DNA of 15,542 nucleotides, from contig DAOVDP010000011.1 in the NCBI GenBank assembly GCA_030669445.1, positions 1 through 15,542 of the forward strand, in the 5' to 3' direction. The notes beneath the pieces were generated by a model. That model had not been told where the DNA came from. It did no database searches and was given only the letters and a program-made list of their open reading frames with translations. The stretch comes from Candidatus Latescibacterota bacterium. Lineage in GTDB: Bacteria; Latescibacterota; MVCY01. Each line of letters begins with the position of its first letter. Within the stretch, counting starts at the first letter, position 1. The position numbers and the translations under genes were made by a program. Of this stretch, positions 2,030-10,249 are shown in pieces.

Positions 2030-2347
2030 TCATCGGCTCAGGAGCTTGATTACTTTGAGGATGACGATCTGGTCGGTAGAACGCCACTGGTCAGGGGATT
2101 TCCACTTACTTAGTGTATCTAAGCTGTTCCCCTGGTAGCGGACGAGCCAGGTTTCATGCCAGAATGCAGCCCAGGCCTGATTGGTAAGGTTAAGGCTTAT
2201 GTCAATGTTGTCCCAACTCCACCCCCACTTGTTGTCGTCTGAGCGTTCGGAGGCAGAACCGCCATGCCAGAACTCCAAGTTATCGATGCCGTGACTGCGG
2301 ATATACCAGCGGTACTGATTCACGGCCTCTGACCAAAAAAGCCGCAA
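2030..2347 (-). pseudogene. Unrecognised 105-codon ORF, possibly the 3' part of a broken gene
   Basis: The frame is open from TTG 2347 to TGA 2030-2032. The product is rich in tryptophan (about ten in 105) and ends with a protein-like strand, DQIVILKVIKLLSR. I recognise no family. There is no Shine-Dalgarno sequence before the TTG, which lies immediately after the long hairpin at 2348-2410. In the same frame, upstream, are a TGA (2357-2359), a TAA (2387-2389) and the 32-codon ORF. A different frame starts with GTG at 2360 and encodes a signal-peptide-like MRILLAAFLV. It would join this ORF if the T6 run at 2335-2340 were one base shorter. So this is either a small gene, a frameshifted secreted protein, or a decayed 3' end. 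Confidence 0.35.
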
Positions 2348-2614: not shown

Positions 2615-4123
2615 TTACCCTATCGGCAAGTTCACTGTAAACACCGTCCCTCTGGGCGCATTGTCATCTACGGTGATTGTCCCGCCGTGCTTCCAGACGA
2701 TGTAGCGGGAAAAGTATAGCCCAAAGCCCGGAGTATTATCAATGAGGTCTCGATTGTGGATTCCCTTGGTGGTGAAACCCGGGCAGAAAATAGCTCGTTT
2801 GACCTCTTCCGGAGTTCGGGGACGAGCCCTTTTTGCCAAGGCCAAAGCTGTCTTCCTGTCAATATGTTTACTGTTGACAAATCCATCGGCTATCTCCTCT
2901 ATCTTCTCCTTGGTTTCTTCCCAGGGGTGAGGCAACCCAACTCCGTTGTCTGTGCAACTGAAGGCGATATTGTCAGATTTCTCTCTCAAAGAGAGAGCCA
3001 AAGTTATCTTCCTGAAAGCGTTTTCCCCGTGCCGCGCAGAAGTCCATTGGTGAATATCCGGATAACACACTGCTTCAAGAGCGTTCTCAATGATATAGAG
3101 GAAGGCACGACGTAGGTTTACTGGATCTCCTATAACGGCTGGAAATCTCTCGAAGAAATCCTTTTCCACAACGACGGGTATACCCTCAAATTTTGGCTGA
3201 ACGATTTCGAGCACCTCCTGAATCACGTTATGAAGGAAGACAGAATCTTTGCCTGCTGGTCTATGGATTTCCAAAAGGAGTTCTTCTTTGGGAAGCTTCG
3301 CTTTCTGTGTGTAATCTTTGTAACTGAAAGCCAACTTAAGGAACATCTCGAAGTTCAGCAGAGCTCTGTCCCATTCGCCTTTCTCCGCATAGGCATTTCC
3401 CAAACCAGCATAAGGAAAAGGATTTTGGGGATCAAGTTGTCGAGCTCCCTCGCAGATCTTAATGACTTCGTCAATTTTCCCCTCTGACCTGGGATAGATT
3501 GCCGTCTTGCAAATCTCAACAATTCTGTCGCTGAAATCCTCCTTTGGTGCTTCTTTCTTCAATGTCCTGTCTACCATCTCCATCATCTCCTCTTTTAATG
3601 ACTTCCGTGCCCGATGAAGTCTTTGCTTTACAACAGCTACAGAGATGCCTAGGAAATCACCGACTTCCCGGCAGGAGAGTCCATCGATGTAATAGAGCGC
3701 CACAACCTGACGGTTTTTCTCTGAAAGCCTGCCGATGGCCTCCATAACCTCTTCTCTGAGCTCCTTTTGTTCATAGAGTTCGGAGGGGTTTTTAGGGCGT
3801 TGAACAAAGGCCGAAACCTGATTTTCGTCCAGTTGGTCCACTGAGACCTTGTCAAAGCGCCTTCGGGCAAGGTAGCTCCTAGATAGGTTGGCTACGGTAG
3901 TCCTCAAGTAGCTTCCAAATCTTGAGGGATCCTTGAGCGCAGAGAGCTGGAGGTAAACCTTAATGAACGCCTCCTGGGCAAGGTCCTGGGCTATGTCGAA
4001 ATCCCTCACATAGCTCAGGGCTAGACCGTAAACAGCGTTCTGATATTCCCTTACCAGCCCGCTGAAGGCATCGAGGTTGCCCTCAAGGCACCGCTGGACC
4101 AGTTGACTATCGGTTGTACTCAA
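2615..4123 (-). CDS. ECF-type sigma factor fused to TPR segment and histidine-kinase-like ATPase domain
   Basis: The 502-residue protein starts as a sigma-70 family factor. Region 2 (about 15-90) includes DIAQDLAQEAFIKVYLQL. Region 4 (about 123-178) has the helix-turn-helix LSCREVGDFLGISVAVVKQR. Residues about 205-262 form a TPR-like segment (PYAGLGNAYAEKGEWDRALL). A GHKL ATPase of histidine-kinase type follows (about 300-500): N box IIENALEA (344-351), G1 DNGVG (392-396), F box PGFTTKG (448-454) and G2 PGFGLYFSRYIV (465-476). The sequence before the ATPase resembles the end of the second DHp helix, but no H-box with a phosphoacceptor histidine is visible. The start is TTG 4123 behind AGGGGG; no ATG fits. 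Known relatives of the parts are ECF factors, which bind RNA polymerase, and GHKL anti-sigma kinases such as SpoIIAB, which bind sigma factors. That the ATPase controls its own sigma part is inference. Confidence 0.88.
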   Translation of the reverse strand: MSTTDSQLVQRCLEGNLDAFSGLVREYQNAVYGLALSYVRDFDIAQDLAQEAFIKVYLQLSALKDPSRFGSYLRTTVANLSRSYLARRRFDKVSVDQLDENQVSAFVQRPKNPSELYEQKELREEVMEAIGRLSEKNRQVVALYYIDGLSCREVGDFLGISVAVVKQRLHRARKSLKEEMMEMVDRTLKKEAPKEDFSDRIVEICKTAIYPRSEGKIDEVIKICEGARQLDPQNPFPYAGLGNAYAEKGEWDRALLNFEMFLKLAFSYKDYTQKAKLPKEELLLEIHRPAGKDSVFLHNVIQEVLEIVQPKFEGIPVVVEKDFFERFPAVIGDPVNLRRAFLYIIENALEAVCYPDIHQWTSARHGENAFRKITLALSLREKSDNIAFSCTDNGVGLPHPWEETKEKIEEIADGFVNSKHIDRKTALALAKRARPRTPEEVKRAIFCPGFTTKGIHNRDLIDNTPGFGLYFSRYIVWKHGGTITVDDNAPRGTVFTVNLPIG

Positions 4124-4149
4124 TCTTACCCCCTGTGAGAAGAAGCACT

Positions 4150-4178
4150 TCTATAAAAGAGACACAAAAGAAGGTGAA
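4150..4178 (-). promoter_or_regulatory. Candidate promoter of the sigma-factor fusion gene
   Basis: On the minus strand TTCACC (4178-4173), a 17-base spacer and TATAGA (4155-4150) lie just upstream of the TTG start. The match is moderate and the leader would be only about 20 bases. Confidence 0.35.
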
Positions 4179-4511
4179 AAGGTGACATTTGGGATAAAAA
4201 AATATTGCGAACCGTGCGTGCTAAGGGAATTGGGGGCGCAAGCTGGTAGGGTAATTTCTCTCTGAAGATAAGCCGTTTGCCCTGAGGCGTCCTGGCAACA
4301 TTTGTGGAGTTTTGAAACCCTCCACTACAACAAAGCCTGGGCAGTTGCAGAGAAAATTGCCTCTGCAGTGAGTAGAGGATGAGCGGTTGAGAAAACTCTT
4401 TCCGTAATGCTGATCTCTCTTCACAGAGAGAATCTCTCTGGTTGAAAGGGACGAATAGATTCGTCGTGAGGATTTTTTTGTTTAGCCAAACGGAGCTATT
4501 AACCAAAAAAA
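4156..4511. other. Intergenic region upstream of the sigma-factor fusion
   Basis: No convincing gene is present; open frames here have no ribosome binding site and no protein-like composition. It contains small hairpins, including CAGAGAG/CTCTCTG around a 3-base loop (4424-4440) and, on the minus strand, GTGGAG/CTCCAC near 4310-4330. It separates the 5S-like fragment from the candidate promoter. Confidence 0.5.
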
Positions 4512-4575: not shown

Positions 4576-6819
4576 CTACCGGAGCAGGCACATTTTTCTT
4601 ACTGCCGTGGCCCCACCTGCACGTAAGTGTAGTAAATAAACGCCCGACCCCACTTCTTCTCCGGACTCGTTTTTGCCGTCCCAGAGCACCCTGTACTTAC
4701 CCGCCGTTTGTATGCCGTGGTGTAAGAATCTTACTTTGCAGCCAAGTACATCAAAGACGCTCAATTCAACATCTTGTGTTTTGCCTATGCGGTACAGAAT
4801 TGTAGTGGTAGCGTTAAAGGGATTGGGGTAATTCGGTTCCAAAACGTGGGTTTCCAAGGTAGGGATTTTTTCTTCAAGCTCAACAGAGGTAGGCGAAAAG
4901 CCATATAAATGACTCAATCCCGCAACGGTGCCCACCCAAATATCTGAATTCCCCCCCATCAGTAGGCAGCGCACATGATTGTCAACCAGTCCTTCGTTGT
5001 AGGAAACAGGAAGCCAACCATCTTCTGTTAATATCCCAATTCCCTTCCAGGTTCCGACCACGACGTATTGCTGTTCCTCCTGGGAGTAAGCAGAGGCATC
5101 AACCGCGGTAATGTGAGATGAAGGCAGGCCGTCCGCCTCGGTATAGGTCACAAAATGGGAGCCGTCATAGAATACCAAGCCATTATAAGTTCCCATCCAG
5201 ACATGATCATCTTGATCGACGGACACAGCCGCAACATCACATCCAGAAGGGAATCCTTGGACCTCAGAGTAAGAGGTCCACCATGCACCATCAAAACAAA
5301 ATAGCCCATCGTTACTTGCGGCCACCCATATACGCCTAGCCCTATCTTCAGCGATATCCAAGGCAATCCCGGATCCACCATCCTCGTATTTTATGAGGTA
5401 ATTCGTCCAGGTGGTGTCATTAAAGACACTAATGCCACCTATTGAACAAACCCATTTTCTATCGGCATGGTCCACAAAAACCTTAGTGACGTAATTGGAA
5501 AGCGGCCTATCACTTTTAAAAAAAGGCAGCCCGGCATCTTTGGTAACATGTGCGTAAGGATCTTCGGCAAGATTCTTGAATTCTCTTCCATCGAACCGAC
5601 TAACACATCTCCCCCCTGTCCCGATCCACAAATTACCATGGTGATCAGCGGCGACGCTGGAAATATTCATATCGGGAAGACCGTCAGAGGTGTCATATGC
5701 GGTAAAATGCGTTCCGTCATACTTGGCCAAACCGCCCCAGGGGTAAACCCCACATGTGATAAGTAACCCCGGCCCTGTGGCTAACCAGAGATTTCCTTGG
5801 GTATCCACAAAGAGGTCATTTATTATCGGACAGTCGAAAGTGTTGAACGGGTTGCGTGCCAACCACCGCCATTGTTGTCCGTCCCAGTAACTAATTCCTT
5901 GACGAGTTGCCAGCCACGGGTTTCCCTCCCGGTCAAAAGCGATTTGGCTGACGCATAACCCCGAAGGGGAATCGTGTTTAATCCATTGGTGTCCGTCATA
6001 TTCATTCAATTGCCCTCTATAATACCAACTATCAGCAGTAGCTACCCATATATGTCCTTCCTGATCTTCCTTGATGTCAGTTACGGAGTCAAAAGTCAGG
6101 CCATCGCTAGTGTCGAATACCTCCCAGTGTGTCCCATCCCAGCGGGCCAGTCCCTTAAGTGTCCCAAACCAATAGGTTGCATGAGAATCTTTAAAGATAG
6201 CATATACCATTTCATTGGGCAGCTCGTCTGGTTTATCATAGGTCCAGTTCTGGCCGTCAAATCGTATGATCCCTCTTTCTGTTCCAACCCAAATGGTGTT
6301 CTGATCATCAACATAAAGACAGTTACTCCAAAGATACTCACCTGTAACCTGAAAGGTCGTAACTATCAGGTTCCACTCCTTACCGTTAAATTTAAGAATG
6401 GCCGATGCAGATGCTGCCCACAGGCTATTGTTGGCATCCACTGCCAAGCTGTTAATATCTGAAGATTTTAAAGATACCTCCCAACTGAAGCCATCAAACC
6501 AGGCCAAACCATTGTCAGTTCCTGCCCATAACCGTCCTGTGTGATCTCTTATTAGGCAATTGATCCGTAGGCTGGGCAGGCCATCTTCTCTTGTATACCT
6601 TTGGTAACTATTGGAGACTTTATCCCGGCGAACCAGCCCATCAGTACTGCCTGCCCAAATGTTGTTGTCCTCTACAAGAAGACAGTTATAATCGGACCTG
6701 AAGCCATAGTAATTTACGATGTGGGTTTGAGAAGCGACCTTCTGGGAAATGGTAAGGCACAAAACAAGGCCCAAGGAGGCAATTATTTCTATGCTCTTAG
6801 GCTTCATAATATTTCCCAT
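4576..6819 (-). CDS. Secreted double beta-propeller protein (two-component regulator propeller repeats) with C-terminal sorting domain
   Basis: The 747-residue product has a signal peptide (about 1-31, hydrophobic ASLGLVLCLTI). Fourteen Reg_prop-type strands of the form I/LW-x-G/A-T-x-x-G-L follow, at about 54, 97, 133, 177, 217, 258, 302, 345, 398, 456, 498, 540, 587 and 627. Fourteen would make two seven-bladed propellers, as in the periplasmic sensors of hybrid two-component systems of Bacteroidetes. Here no transmembrane helix or kinase follows. Instead there is a type A / FlgD-like sorting domain (about 662-747), starting PNYPNPFNATTTI and including VFDVLG and SGVYLL. Export to the outer surface is inferred from that domain. 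The ligand is unknown. ATG 6819 is chosen for its GAGGA site; ATG 6807 is an alternative. The gene starts 54 bases after 5S. Confidence 0.87.
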   Translation of the reverse strand: MGNIMKPKSIEIIASLGLVLCLTISQKVASQTHIVNYYGFRSDYNCLLVEDNNIWAGSTDGLVRRDKVSNSYQRYTREDGLPSLRINCLIRDHTGRLWAGTDNGLAWFDGFSWEVSLKSSDINSLAVDANNSLWAASASAILKFNGKEWNLIVTTFQVTGEYLWSNCLYVDDQNTIWVGTERGIIRFDGQNWTYDKPDELPNEMVYAIFKDSHATYWFGTLKGLARWDGTHWEVFDTSDGLTFDSVTDIKEDQEGHIWVATADSWYYRGQLNEYDGHQWIKHDSPSGLCVSQIAFDREGNPWLATRQGISYWDGQQWRWLARNPFNTFDCPIINDLFVDTQGNLWLATGPGLLITCGVYPWGGLAKYDGTHFTAYDTSDGLPDMNISSVAADHHGNLWIGTGGRCVSRFDGREFKNLAEDPYAHVTKDAGLPFFKSDRPLSNYVTKVFVDHADRKWVCSIGGISVFNDTTWTNYLIKYEDGGSGIALDIAEDRARRIWVAASNDGLFCFDGAWWTSYSEVQGFPSGCDVAAVSVDQDDHVWMGTYNGLVFYDGSHFVTYTEADGLPSSHITAVDASAYSQEEQQYVVVGTWKGIGILTEDGWLPVSYNEGLVDNHVRCLLMGGNSDIWVGTVAGLSHLYGFSPTSVELEEKIPTLETHVLEPNYPNPFNATTTILYRIGKTQDVELSVFDVLGCKVRFLHHGIQTAGKYRVLWDGKNESGEEVGSGVYLLHLRAGGATAVRKMCLLR

Positions 6820-7048: not shown

Positions 7049-7189
7049 ATCAAATTTGGTCAAGCCACACGGCCGATTAGTGCCGCTCAGCTGAACATGT
7101 TGCCATGCTTACACTTGCGGTCTATCAAACCCGTAGTCTACGGGAGGCCTTTAGATCCGATAAACGGATGGGATATCTCGTCTTGGGGG

Positions 7190-7242
<53 letters not shown>

Positions 7243-7412
7243 AGCCTTTGCCCCTGGCGGGACAACTGGTACACTAGAGGTTCGTCCACCCCGGTCCTCT
7301 CGTACTGGGGGCAGCTCCCCTCAAATATCCTACACCCACGGCAGATAGGGACCGAACTGTCTCACGACGTTCTAAACCCAGCTCGCGTACCGCTTTAATT
7401 GGCGAACATCCA

Positions 7413-7443
<31 letters not shown>

Positions 7444-7449
7444 CGATGG

Positions 7450-7482
<33 letters not shown>

Positions 7483-7502
7483 ATGAACTCTTGGGGGAGA
7501 TG

Positions 7503-7536
<34 letters not shown>

Positions 7537-8005
7537 TCTTCGGCGCTTCCACACGCCACCGTCGGGTCACTAAGCCCTGCTTTCGCATCTGCTTGACTTG
7601 TAGGTCTCGCAGTTAAGCTCCCTTATGCCTTTACACTCTATGCACGATTACCAACCGTGCTGAGGGAACCTTTGGGCGCCTCCGTTACCTTTTGGGAGGC
7701 GACCGCCCCAGTCAAACTACCCATCAAGCACTGTCCCTGATCCTGATTCAAGGATCCAGGTTAGAGCGCCAACTAAACAAGGGTGGTATTTCAAGGGCGG
7801 CTCCACCCCGACTAGCGCCGGGGCTTCACAGCCTCCCACCTATCCTACACATGTTTAGCTAAAACCCAATACCAGACTGTAGTAAAGGTTCCGGGGTCTT
7901 TCCGTCTTGCCGCGGGTATCCGGCATCTTCACCGGAAATACAATTTCGCCGAGTCCCTCGTTGAGACAGCGCCTAGATCGTTACACCATTCGTGCGGGTC
8001 GGACA

Positions 8006-8072
<67 letters not shown>

Positions 8073-8086
8073 GTTCAGGGCTTCAA

Positions 8087-8197
8087 CCACTGAAACACCA
8101 AAAAACGCCGCAAAAAAACACTAAACAAGACTCTCGGCTGTTGCCAGCTTTGAATCTCGCTTTTGTGCTTCAATTAGCATCTTCAGCGTTTCAGCGG
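8087..8197 (-). other. Expansion of helix 68 in 23S rRNA
   Basis: Compared with the E. coli H68 region, remembered rather than aligned by program, about 100 extra bases are present. CCACTGAAAC (8087-8096) pairs with GTTTCAGCGG (8188-8197) over 10 bp with one G-U. This encloses 91 bases with A-rich stretches and smaller hairpins such as GCTG/CAGC. The flanking conserved sequences (ACCGGGGCTTC and TTAACCTTCCGGC on the plus strand) are intact. Confidence 0.7.
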
Positions 8198-8436
8198 TCT
8201 AACTCCTCCCTTTAACCTTCCGGCACCGGGCAGGTGTCAATCTCTATACGTCGTCTTGCGACTTAGCAGAGACCTGTGTTTTTAGTAAACAGTCGGCCAG
8301 GCCGTTTCTCTGCGGCCTCCTTCGGCTCCATCCGCTAAGGATTTCACCTACCAGAGGCACCCCTTCTCCCGAAGTTACGGGGTCATTTTGCCGAGTTCCT
8401 TAACGAGGGTTCTCTCGAGCACCTTAGGATTCTCTC

Positions 8437-8470
<34 letters not shown>

Positions 8471-8888
8471 CCTGATGACTCGCTTAGAGGTTTTTCTTGG
8501 CAGCCTGATTAGGGTTAGTTTGTGGCCTTACAGCCTTCCCATCACCTCTCGGAGTTGTGCCCCAACGGATTTGCCTATCGGGACCTCCTACGGGCTTGGA
8601 CCTCGTAATCCAACACGAGGCTGACCTTTCACTTCTGCGTCACCCCATCGCTCAGGTGTTATCAAGGTGGTCCAGGAATTTTGACCTGATCTCCATCGCC
8701 TACGCCTTTCGGCCTCGGCTTAGGGTCCGACTTACCCTGGGCGGATTAACCTTCCCCAGGAAACCTTAGACTTTCGGTGTTCCGATTTTTCATCGAAATT
8801 ATCGCTACTCATGCCGGCATAATCACTTCCATCTCCTCCACCCTTCGTTACCGAAGGACTTCACAGGTTAATGGAACGCTCCCCTACC

Positions 8889-8965
8889 AATGTCAGTCAT
8901 CAGTCATTGGTCAATAGTCATTAGTAAAACTAACAACCGGTAACCGATGACATATGGCCGACATT
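8889..8965 (-). repeat. Helix 63 expansion in 23S rRNA containing tandem heptamers
   Basis: A 77-base hairpin extends H63. AATGTC (8889-8894) pairs with GACATT (8960-8965), and GTCATC (8896-8901) pairs with GATGAC (8946-8951). One arm has four heptamers of pattern RGTCAWY in a row (8895-8922: AGTCATC, AGTCATT, GGTCAAT, AGTCATT). H63 is the position of expansion segment ES27 in eukaryotes. Confidence 0.7.
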
Positions 8966-9041
8966 TTGCAGCTTCGGCAGTAGGCTTAGCCCCGTTAATT
9001 TTCGGCGCCACGCCACTTGACCAGTGAGCAGTTACGCACTC

Positions 9042-9073
<32 letters not shown>

Positions 9074-9642
9074 TGGTTGTCTAAGCAACCCGACCTCCTT
9101 TGTCACTTAGCCTACATTTAGGGGCCTTAGCTGACAATCTGGGTTGTTTCCCTCTCGGCTACGAAGCTTATCCCCCGCAGCCTGACTCCTGCACAACAAG
9201 TAAATGGTATTCGGAGTTTGGTTGGGTTCGGAAATCCATCAAGATCCCTAGCCCATCCAGTGCTCTACCCCCACTACTCTATAATGCAAGGCTAGCCCTA
9301 AAGCTATTTCGGGGAGAACCAGCTATCTCCGAGTTTGATTGGCCTTTCACCCCTATCCACAGCTCATCCGAGCAGTTTTCAGCCTACACCGGTTCGGACC
9401 TCCACTCAGTTTAACCTGAGCTTCATCCTGGCCATGGATAGATCACTCGGTTTCGGGTCTACCGCACGTTACTAAAACGCCCTATTAAGACTCGCTTTCG
9501 CTACGGCTCCGTCCTTGGAGGATTTAACCTTGCAACGCACGAGTAACTCGCCGGCTCATTAAACAAAAGGCACGCTGTCACCAGTGAGTTGACCGAAATC
9601 AACTCACAAGGCTCCAACTGCTTGTAAGCACATGGTTTCAGG

Positions 9643-9694
<52 letters not shown>

Positions 9695-9889
9695 GGTTCA
9701 CTATCGGTCACAAGAGAGTATTTAGCCTTATGCCGTGGTCGGCACAGATTCCTGCGGGATTCCTCGTGTCCCACAGTACTTGGGAGAAGAGCCCAAGAAG
9801 CCTACTACCTTTTCGTCTACAGGGCTGTCGCCTTCTGTGGCCACCCCTTTCCAGGGATGTTCGACTAAGGTGCAGGTTTGTAACTTCTC

Positions 9890-9966
9890 GACCAGGCTGC
9901 ATCCTGGTCCGGTTCTTTCCCGCAACCCCGGTTGTACAACGCATGCAAGCTTTTACATACAACCGG
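9890..9966 (-). other. Domain I expansion of 23S rRNA with two stable hairpins
   Basis: GACCAGG (9890-9896) pairs perfectly with CCTGGTC (9903-9909) around 6 bases. CCGGTTGTA (9928-9936) pairs perfectly with TACAACCGG (9958-9966) around 21 bases. The segment between the conserved TTTCCAGG and GGCTGTTTCC blocks is about 75 bases longer than in E. coli. Confidence 0.6.
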
Positions 9967-10249
9967 TTTAGGCTGTTTCCTTTTCGCTCGCCGCTACTGG
10001 GGAAATCGCATTCGCTTTCTTTTCCTGAGGTTACTAAGATGGTTCAGTTTGCCTCGTTCGCTCTGGTCCGCCTATAGATTCAGCGAACAGTGGCCCGGCA
10101 TTACCCGGGTCGGGTTGCCCCATTCGGAGATCCCCGGATCTAAGGTTGTTTACACCTCCCCGAGGCTTATCGCAGCTTACCACGTCCTTCATCGCCTTCT
10201 TGTGCCAAGGCATCCACCATGTGCCCTTTATATCTTGACCAAAAACCCA

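Follow-up and report, generated by a model that had tools for sequence, protein, structure and literature searches.

Positions 2615 to 4123 (minus strand) of the window, the whole 15,542-nucleotide stretch of a Candidatus Latescibacterota genome analysed here, encode in one frame a predicted ECF sigma factor, a short TPR segment and the CA ATPase domain of a histidine kinase lacking its DHp helices. The favoured reading, at a probability of roughly 0.5, is a one-component ECF sigma factor that would be gated in cis, with the nucleotide state of its DHp-less kinase domain, a partner bound to the TPR, or both as the input. The gene comprises the following features.

2615..4123, minus strand: whole fusion gene, 502 codons plus stop, with a TTG start and one uninterrupted frame
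4125..4134, minus strand: Shine-Dalgarno-like AGGGGGTAAG preceding the TTG start (AGGGGGTGAG in the second genome, G003)
3854..4123, minus strand: ECF sigma region 2, residues 1-90 (Sigma70_r2 at 23-89, E 4.9e-13; ten-residue pLDDT means 82-97)
3758..3853, minus strand: linker between sigma regions 2 and 4, residues 91-122, lying between the Pfam matches (pLDDT below 50 at 105-110)
3572..3757, minus strand: ECF sigma region 4, residues 123-184 (Sigma70_r4_2 at 123-176, E 2.1e-14)
3512..3571, minus strand: linker following the sigma part, residues 185-204, containing a P-x3-F-x3-I motif; identity between species jumps just after it
3326..3511, minus strand: about two TPR units, residues 205-266 (TPR_19 at 213-254; four helices)
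3248..3325, minus strand: short junction, residues 267-292, occupying the position where DHp helix 2 would end, without an H-box and with one eight-residue helix (279-286)
2618..3247, minus strand: histidine-kinase-type CA/GHKL ATPase, residues 293-502 (HATPase_c at 332-501, E 2e-11; ThkA-like fold)
2813..2929, minus strand: lid-adjacent insertion (residues 399-437, about 39 in all) separating the G1 and F boxes, a gap in all 23 aligned kinase-type domains

The initial annotation had read sigma regions 2 and 4, a TPR-like segment and GHKL ATPase boxes from a single 502-codon frame, and both the Pfam matches and the motif positions agree with it. Sigma70_r2, Sigma70_r4_2 and HATPase_c all exceed their Pfam cut-offs when the whole protein is scanned. 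The three-part order recurs in Latescibacterota CSMAG_1544 (G003), a genome of the same genus, whose 502-residue copy is 91% identical without any indel and shares the frame and start region of the window gene, which speaks against a chance open frame. AGGGGG lies five bases 5′ of the TTG, and this ribosome-binding region is kept in G003. The fusion gene is an intact bacterial gene, and its architecture is confirmed. Further upstream, a TGTCACC-N15-GTGTCTC element (4159-4187, minus strand; 36-64 bases 5′ of the start) is also kept in G003. It occurs once each in the window's own genome (G000, 62% complete) and in G003 (80% complete) and is absent from the other three genomes of the genus; a single occurrence per genome does not permit a regulon to be inferred for ECF autoregulation.

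By sequence the protein is an ECF (group 4) factor predicted to bind RNA polymerase. Regions 2 and 4 are present while region 3 is unmatched in Pfam, and the general ECF model of NCBIfam (TIGR02937) scores 105.1 bits against a cut-off of 42.9.

The TPR segment is short. TPR_19 scored 23.9 bits on the whole protein (E 5.5e-5), below its cut-off of 25, and 25.9 bits (E 1.2e-5), above the cut-off, when residues 186-300 were scanned alone. Helices at 197-209, 217-230, 236-247 and 251-266 were seen in the full-length model, built with TPR-bearing relatives, so that the tandem units that define a TPR protein are present within a short match. PF20239, which is taken here to mark ECF42-like proteins, had no match in the whole protein at E ≤1 or in its C-terminal part at E ≤10.

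What follows the TPR has the nucleotide-binding boxes of a histidine kinase and lacks its phosphorylation module. HisKA had no match at E ≤10 in residues 186-502, 186-300 or 272-502, and histidine is absent from residues 171-286; the histidines of the protein are at 170, 287, 298, 358, 365, 399, 420, 456 and 479. A kinase of the same genus (L193) can be aligned with the fusion from residue 263 onwards (23% identity over 240 columns), and its VHEIKNPL motif sits upstream of the aligned part, where the fusion has the TPR. No DHp hairpin is seen at the TPR-to-CA junction in the AlphaFold2 model of residues 186-502. The absence of an H-box histidine noted in the initial annotation is thereby upheld by the HisKA searches, the histidine positions and the hairpin-free junction, and the HMM searches revealed no DHp helix with a conserved histidine. 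A DHp domain hidden by divergence was considered and is ruled out by these results together with the L193 alignment. With CA boxes present and both DHp and H-box absent, the fusion protein is not a member of the histidine kinases. CA domains that lack a DHp may still bind ATP, but ordinary histidine autokinase activity is beyond them.

The ATPase carries an N box (ENALEA, 346-351), a G1 box (DNGVGLP, 392-398), an F box (IFCPGFTTK, 445-453) and a G2 box (PGFGLYF, 465-471). Kinase-domain fragments from the phylum numbered 24, of which 23 were aligned and one, ended by its contig (L027), was left out. Across these 23 domains and the G003 copy, residues N347, D392, G394, G396, F446, G466 and L469 are invariant. 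Two insertions are specific to the fusion in this alignment: the one next to the lid, modelled as helices 405-419 and 423-432 (ten-residue pLDDT means 72-80), and another, some 15 residues long, that follows the N box. In the G2 box the kinases have GxGLG or close forms, and the fusion has GFGLY. The altered G2 box and the lid insertion could indicate a repurposed, non-catalytic domain.

Two separate alignments, of the full-length protein and of residues 186-502, were used for folding, and the resulting models are informative over different parts. The model of residues 186-502 has a mean pLDDT of 70; most of its ATPase blocks score 85-95, those near the lid insertion 72-81 and two loops 41-44, and the TPR blocks score poorly (41-59). 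In the full-length model, with two TPR-bearing relatives in its alignment, the blocks of residues 201-260 reach 67-80 and the pTM is 0.49; the ATPase is poor here because it has no alignment in this region, and the interface between ATPase and sigma part is therefore unreadable. Foldseek searches of the PDB with the model of residues 186-502 ranked ZraS first (9jfj, E 1.4e-12). The top matches are whole DHp-CA fragments aligned over about 300 columns at 12-16 Å rmsd, indicating that the TPR helices were superposed on the DHp helices without a real fit, while the isolated CA domain of ThkA (3a0t) gave a TMt of 0.83 and an rmsd of 3.4 Å. The RsbW/SpoIIAB-type HATPase_c_2 (PF13581, presumably the label of the HATPase_c_2-type GHKL domains) was matched neither by the whole protein at E ≤1 nor by the C-terminal part at E ≤10. 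Sequence and model together thus assign the ATPase to a predicted ZraS/ThkA-like type and not to the SpoIIAB/RsbW type. The comparison with free GHKL anti-sigma kinases made in the initial annotation holds for the GHKL fold, but not for the subfamily, which is that of histidine-kinase CA domains.

The fusion is rare. All 60 genomes searched, the window's own included, have a match to the protein, and among the matches listed only those of its own genome and G003 span residues 1-502. In the named collection, 105 stretches had a relative and 80 were kept, one of which covers residues 1-502: the CSMAG_1544 contig (coverage 72.5). With residues 206-502 as query, three of 64 phylum genomes matched at E ≤1e-8. 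The match in G001 covers only 68 residues inside a 399-codon kinase frame, leaving the fusion in two of the 64 genomes and in two of the five of its genus. In a set of 5.8 billion proteins, HATPase_c stood beside sigma domains only in the window protein's own cluster (one of 21 and one of 51 matches, among the best 7996 candidates), and residues 205-502 matched only the window protein itself among 2227 candidates; these searches need shared five-residue words and could miss distant fusions. Free-standing relatives of the TPR-ATPase part were not found in the 60 genomes, where the non-fusion matches were weak (best E 8.4e-9) and mostly covered the last 70 or so residues, which are shared with kinases. 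No relative was found in viral contigs, and a viral origin is ruled out on that ground. No sigma-HATPase fusion was seen in the literature listings and passages searched; the ECF reclassification (10.1093/nar/gkaa1229), which lies outside that scope, may list one. Independent sigma-ATPase fusions may exist in other phyla.

The two copies differ unevenly along their length; neither this mosaic divergence nor the lid insertion is mentioned in the initial annotation. Synonymous differences number 39 in codons 1-202 and eight in codons 203-502 (Fisher P 6e-10), with dN 0.099 and dS 0.404 for residues 1-190 against dN 0.017 and dS 0.063 for residues 191-502. The CA domain has a dN of 0.010 against a dS of 0.072; the TPR alone, where changes are very few, has a dN (0.020) not below its dS (0.011). 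In both halves dN is lower than dS, which is counted in favour of the one-component sigma reading. For comparison, dS is 0.15 in the radical-SAM gene (437-1915), found downstream of the fusion in both genomes, and 0.16-0.25 in three other gene pairs, a fourth, gapped pair having been left out. Relative to the radical-SAM gene the C-terminal half is less diverged (P 0.0005) and the sigma half more so (P 0.0002), against an uneven background, as dS in 60-codon windows of that gene ranges from 0.05 to 0.32. The sigma half and the radical-SAM gene share a GC3 of 59%, against 51% for the C-terminal half. Codon 202 has the last synonymous difference of the divergent half, and from there no difference at all is seen until codon 264. 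This pattern is most simply read as a recent exchange of the TPR-ATPase half whose boundary lies between these codons; alternatively, this half may be under unusual nucleotide constraint.

The genes immediately flanking the fusion differ between the two genomes. In G003, the fusion and the radical-SAM gene are separated by a gene for a 769-residue DUF5916 protein (L054:2837-5146), to which the window has only a 105-codon open frame (2030-2347, minus strand) and short pieces that correspond. On the other side, a gene at 4576-6819 (minus strand) lies between the 5S rRNA and the fusion; its 747-residue product has seven matches to two-component-regulator propellers and, at its end, FlgD_ig/Por_Secre_tail. 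This open frame is absent from the G003 contig, where the rRNA ends about 390 bases before the fusion. The rRNA operon has the order 16S, tRNA-Ile, tRNA-Ala, 23S and 5S. Its 23S match (7056-10240, minus strand) spans 3185 bases against 2925 in the model, and may hold inserted stretches.

The fusion belongs to a broad set of ECF factors in this phylum that bear varied C-terminal modules, including ankyrin, HEAT, TPR, GNAT, FliG-like and F5/8C domains. This set was sampled as 58 proteins, namely the two fusions and 56 other ECF frames from the 60-genome search (the best matches of 18 genomes and 38 further listed matches chosen for their long open frames). Among the 25 of 54 families listed, ankyrin models were found in eight of the 58, TPR_16 in seven, HEAT_2 in six, GNAT (Acetyltransf_9) in four and the 3-keto-disaccharide hydrolase in two; HATPase_c falls outside these 25. 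A profile of the 24 kinase-domain fragments, run against 114 sequences, matched two distinct proteins, namely the fusion of the window (also present in the database as P0001) and that of G003, and no other sequence at E ≤10. In a 76-row tree of sigma parts, the two fusions group together (100/97) inside a four-member group (100/99) with P0002 and P0003, which bear TPR and F5/8 type C domains instead; close sigma factors therefore carry different modules. The linker motif, as P-x(2,4)-F-x3-[VIL] within 40 residues after sigma region 4, recurs in phylum ECF factors bearing other C-terminal modules. It was found in 20 of the 58 proteins (3% when shuffled), making it common, not general; in the database it was present in ten of 12 proteins with the anchor motif, the window protein among them, in a count that dropped proteins of more than 250 residues without the anchor. 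Another member of the set (L006:1495-3381, plus strand) is an ECF sigma factor that shares 51% identity with the window protein over the sigma part and has three FliG_C matches (E 5.3e-32) in its extension. In three members of the HEAT-bearing clade (L012, L013 and L155), GAACCTTT and, after it, a TCGWCA- or TCGTCA-like element were noticed by eye upstream of the ECF start, and the shared arrangement resembles an ECF-type promoter.

In the proposed mechanism of cis gating, the CA domain would bind ATP, and the extra helical hairpin would modulate the state of its lid (ATP-bound, ADP-bound or empty), which would be passed to the sigma part. Depending on lid state and on a protein bound to the TPR, the extension would either cover sigma regions 2 and 4 or free them for RNA polymerase. 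The kinase domain would then serve as a nucleotide-gated regulatory lid and not as a histidine autokinase, so that signal input and sigma output would share one chain with no separate anti-sigma factor. The initial annotation had already suggested such an arrangement, with the ATPase responding to nucleotide or a partner and keeping or freeing the sigma part in cis. The suggestion fits both the anatomy of the protein and the behaviour of the ECF41 and ECF42 extensions, the analogy from which cis gating is argued.

The main rival is a kinase role in trans, and it is judged improbable. Here the CA domain would be a working kinase that switches the sigma factor by phosphorylating its own sigma part or a partner, either a DHp or Hpt domain brought by the TPR or Ser/Thr as in SpoIIAB-type proteins. 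The nucleotide-binding boxes are intact, CapK, a DHp-less GHKL protein, phosphorylates the STAS repressor CapS (PMC13373217, excerpt), and ECF regulation by phosphorylation has been described (PMC8999054, excerpt). However, the domain is of histidine-kinase type with HATPase_c_2 unmatched, no partner gene occurs among the window frames scanned, and in the three incomplete genomes searched STAS matches were confined to G002, which lacks the fusion, with none in G000 or G003. The two STAS matches of G002, a genome of the same genus (C209:793-1949), adjoin a weak HATPase_c match and perhaps belong to a separate partner-switch cluster.

It is likewise doubtful that the CA domain is a scaffold with neither chemistry nor sensing, serving solely for dimerisation or docking of the sigma factor, a role that ankyrin, HEAT or TPR modules may have in its relatives. 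Unrelated repeat modules at the same place in the same phylum would be consistent with such a role, as would the altered G2 box and the lid insertion, but the nucleotide-contacting motifs are kept and the dN of the CA domain is low. Still less probable is a catalytically live built-in kinase, in which ATP-dependent phosphotransfer to the protein itself or to a His or Ser partner bound by the TPR controls promoter selection. If true, one protein would combine kinase and sigma factor into a signalling system that has neither response regulator nor anti-sigma factor. An unlinked anti-sigma factor may be encoded outside the window; Pfam found none among the five other window frames scanned, in a genome that is 62% complete. 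The assembly chimera or frameshift that the initial annotation had raised can be set aside as highly improbable: the C-terminal half is almost without relatives, its GC3 is distinct and the halves are unequally diverged, but the intact second copy, with the same 502-residue frame and joint on a contig of coverage 72.5 and the same radical-SAM gene downstream, speaks against any artificial joining of two genes.

A sigma factor carrying a kinase CA domain would unite two signalling systems that usually reside in different proteins. The regulatory extensions of ECF factors are a poorly understood area of ECF signalling, with at least 26 groups, 15 of which are still to be studied (PMC8999054, excerpt). 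Many-module ECF cores in an uncultured phylum, together with a visible exchange boundary, form a natural series in which to test how sigma factors are controlled by their extensions.

Several known systems share parts of this architecture. In ECF42 proteins (Sven_4377 and P. putida ECF-10) an ECF core is likewise followed by a C-terminal TPR extension, which is essential and thought to bind a protein partner (PMC8999054, excerpt), whereas the fusion has a TPR segment of only some two units, lacks a PF20239 match and adds a CA ATPase. ECF41 proteins such as SigJ have a soluble, SnoaL-like C-terminal domain that contacts the sigma linker and regulates the sigma factor in cis (PMC8999054, excerpt); the extension of the fusion has another fold, with no SnoaL match in Pfam. 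Sensor kinases of the ZraS/NtrB/ThkA type have the CA fold and the N, G1, F and G2 boxes in common with the fusion, which differs from them in having no DHp/HisKA or H-box, a sigma output on the same chain and a lid insertion of about 39 residues. SpoIIAB/RsbW and CapK are also DHp-less GHKL ATPases acting on a transcription regulator (PMC13373217, excerpt), but they are separate proteins of a different GHKL subfamily, whereas the ATPase here is fused to the sigma factor. In the excerpted account of sigma-SsdA of Actinoplanes missouriensis, a sigma factor fused to STAS is bound and apparently inhibited via its fused domain (PMC10733313), which makes it the closest parallel for the joining of a sigma factor to a partner-switch module, although it combines a SigB/F/G-type sigma factor with STAS and not an ECF factor with a CA ATPase. 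ECF factors with a regulatory C-terminal extension are already known; in this one the extension includes a CA ATPase.
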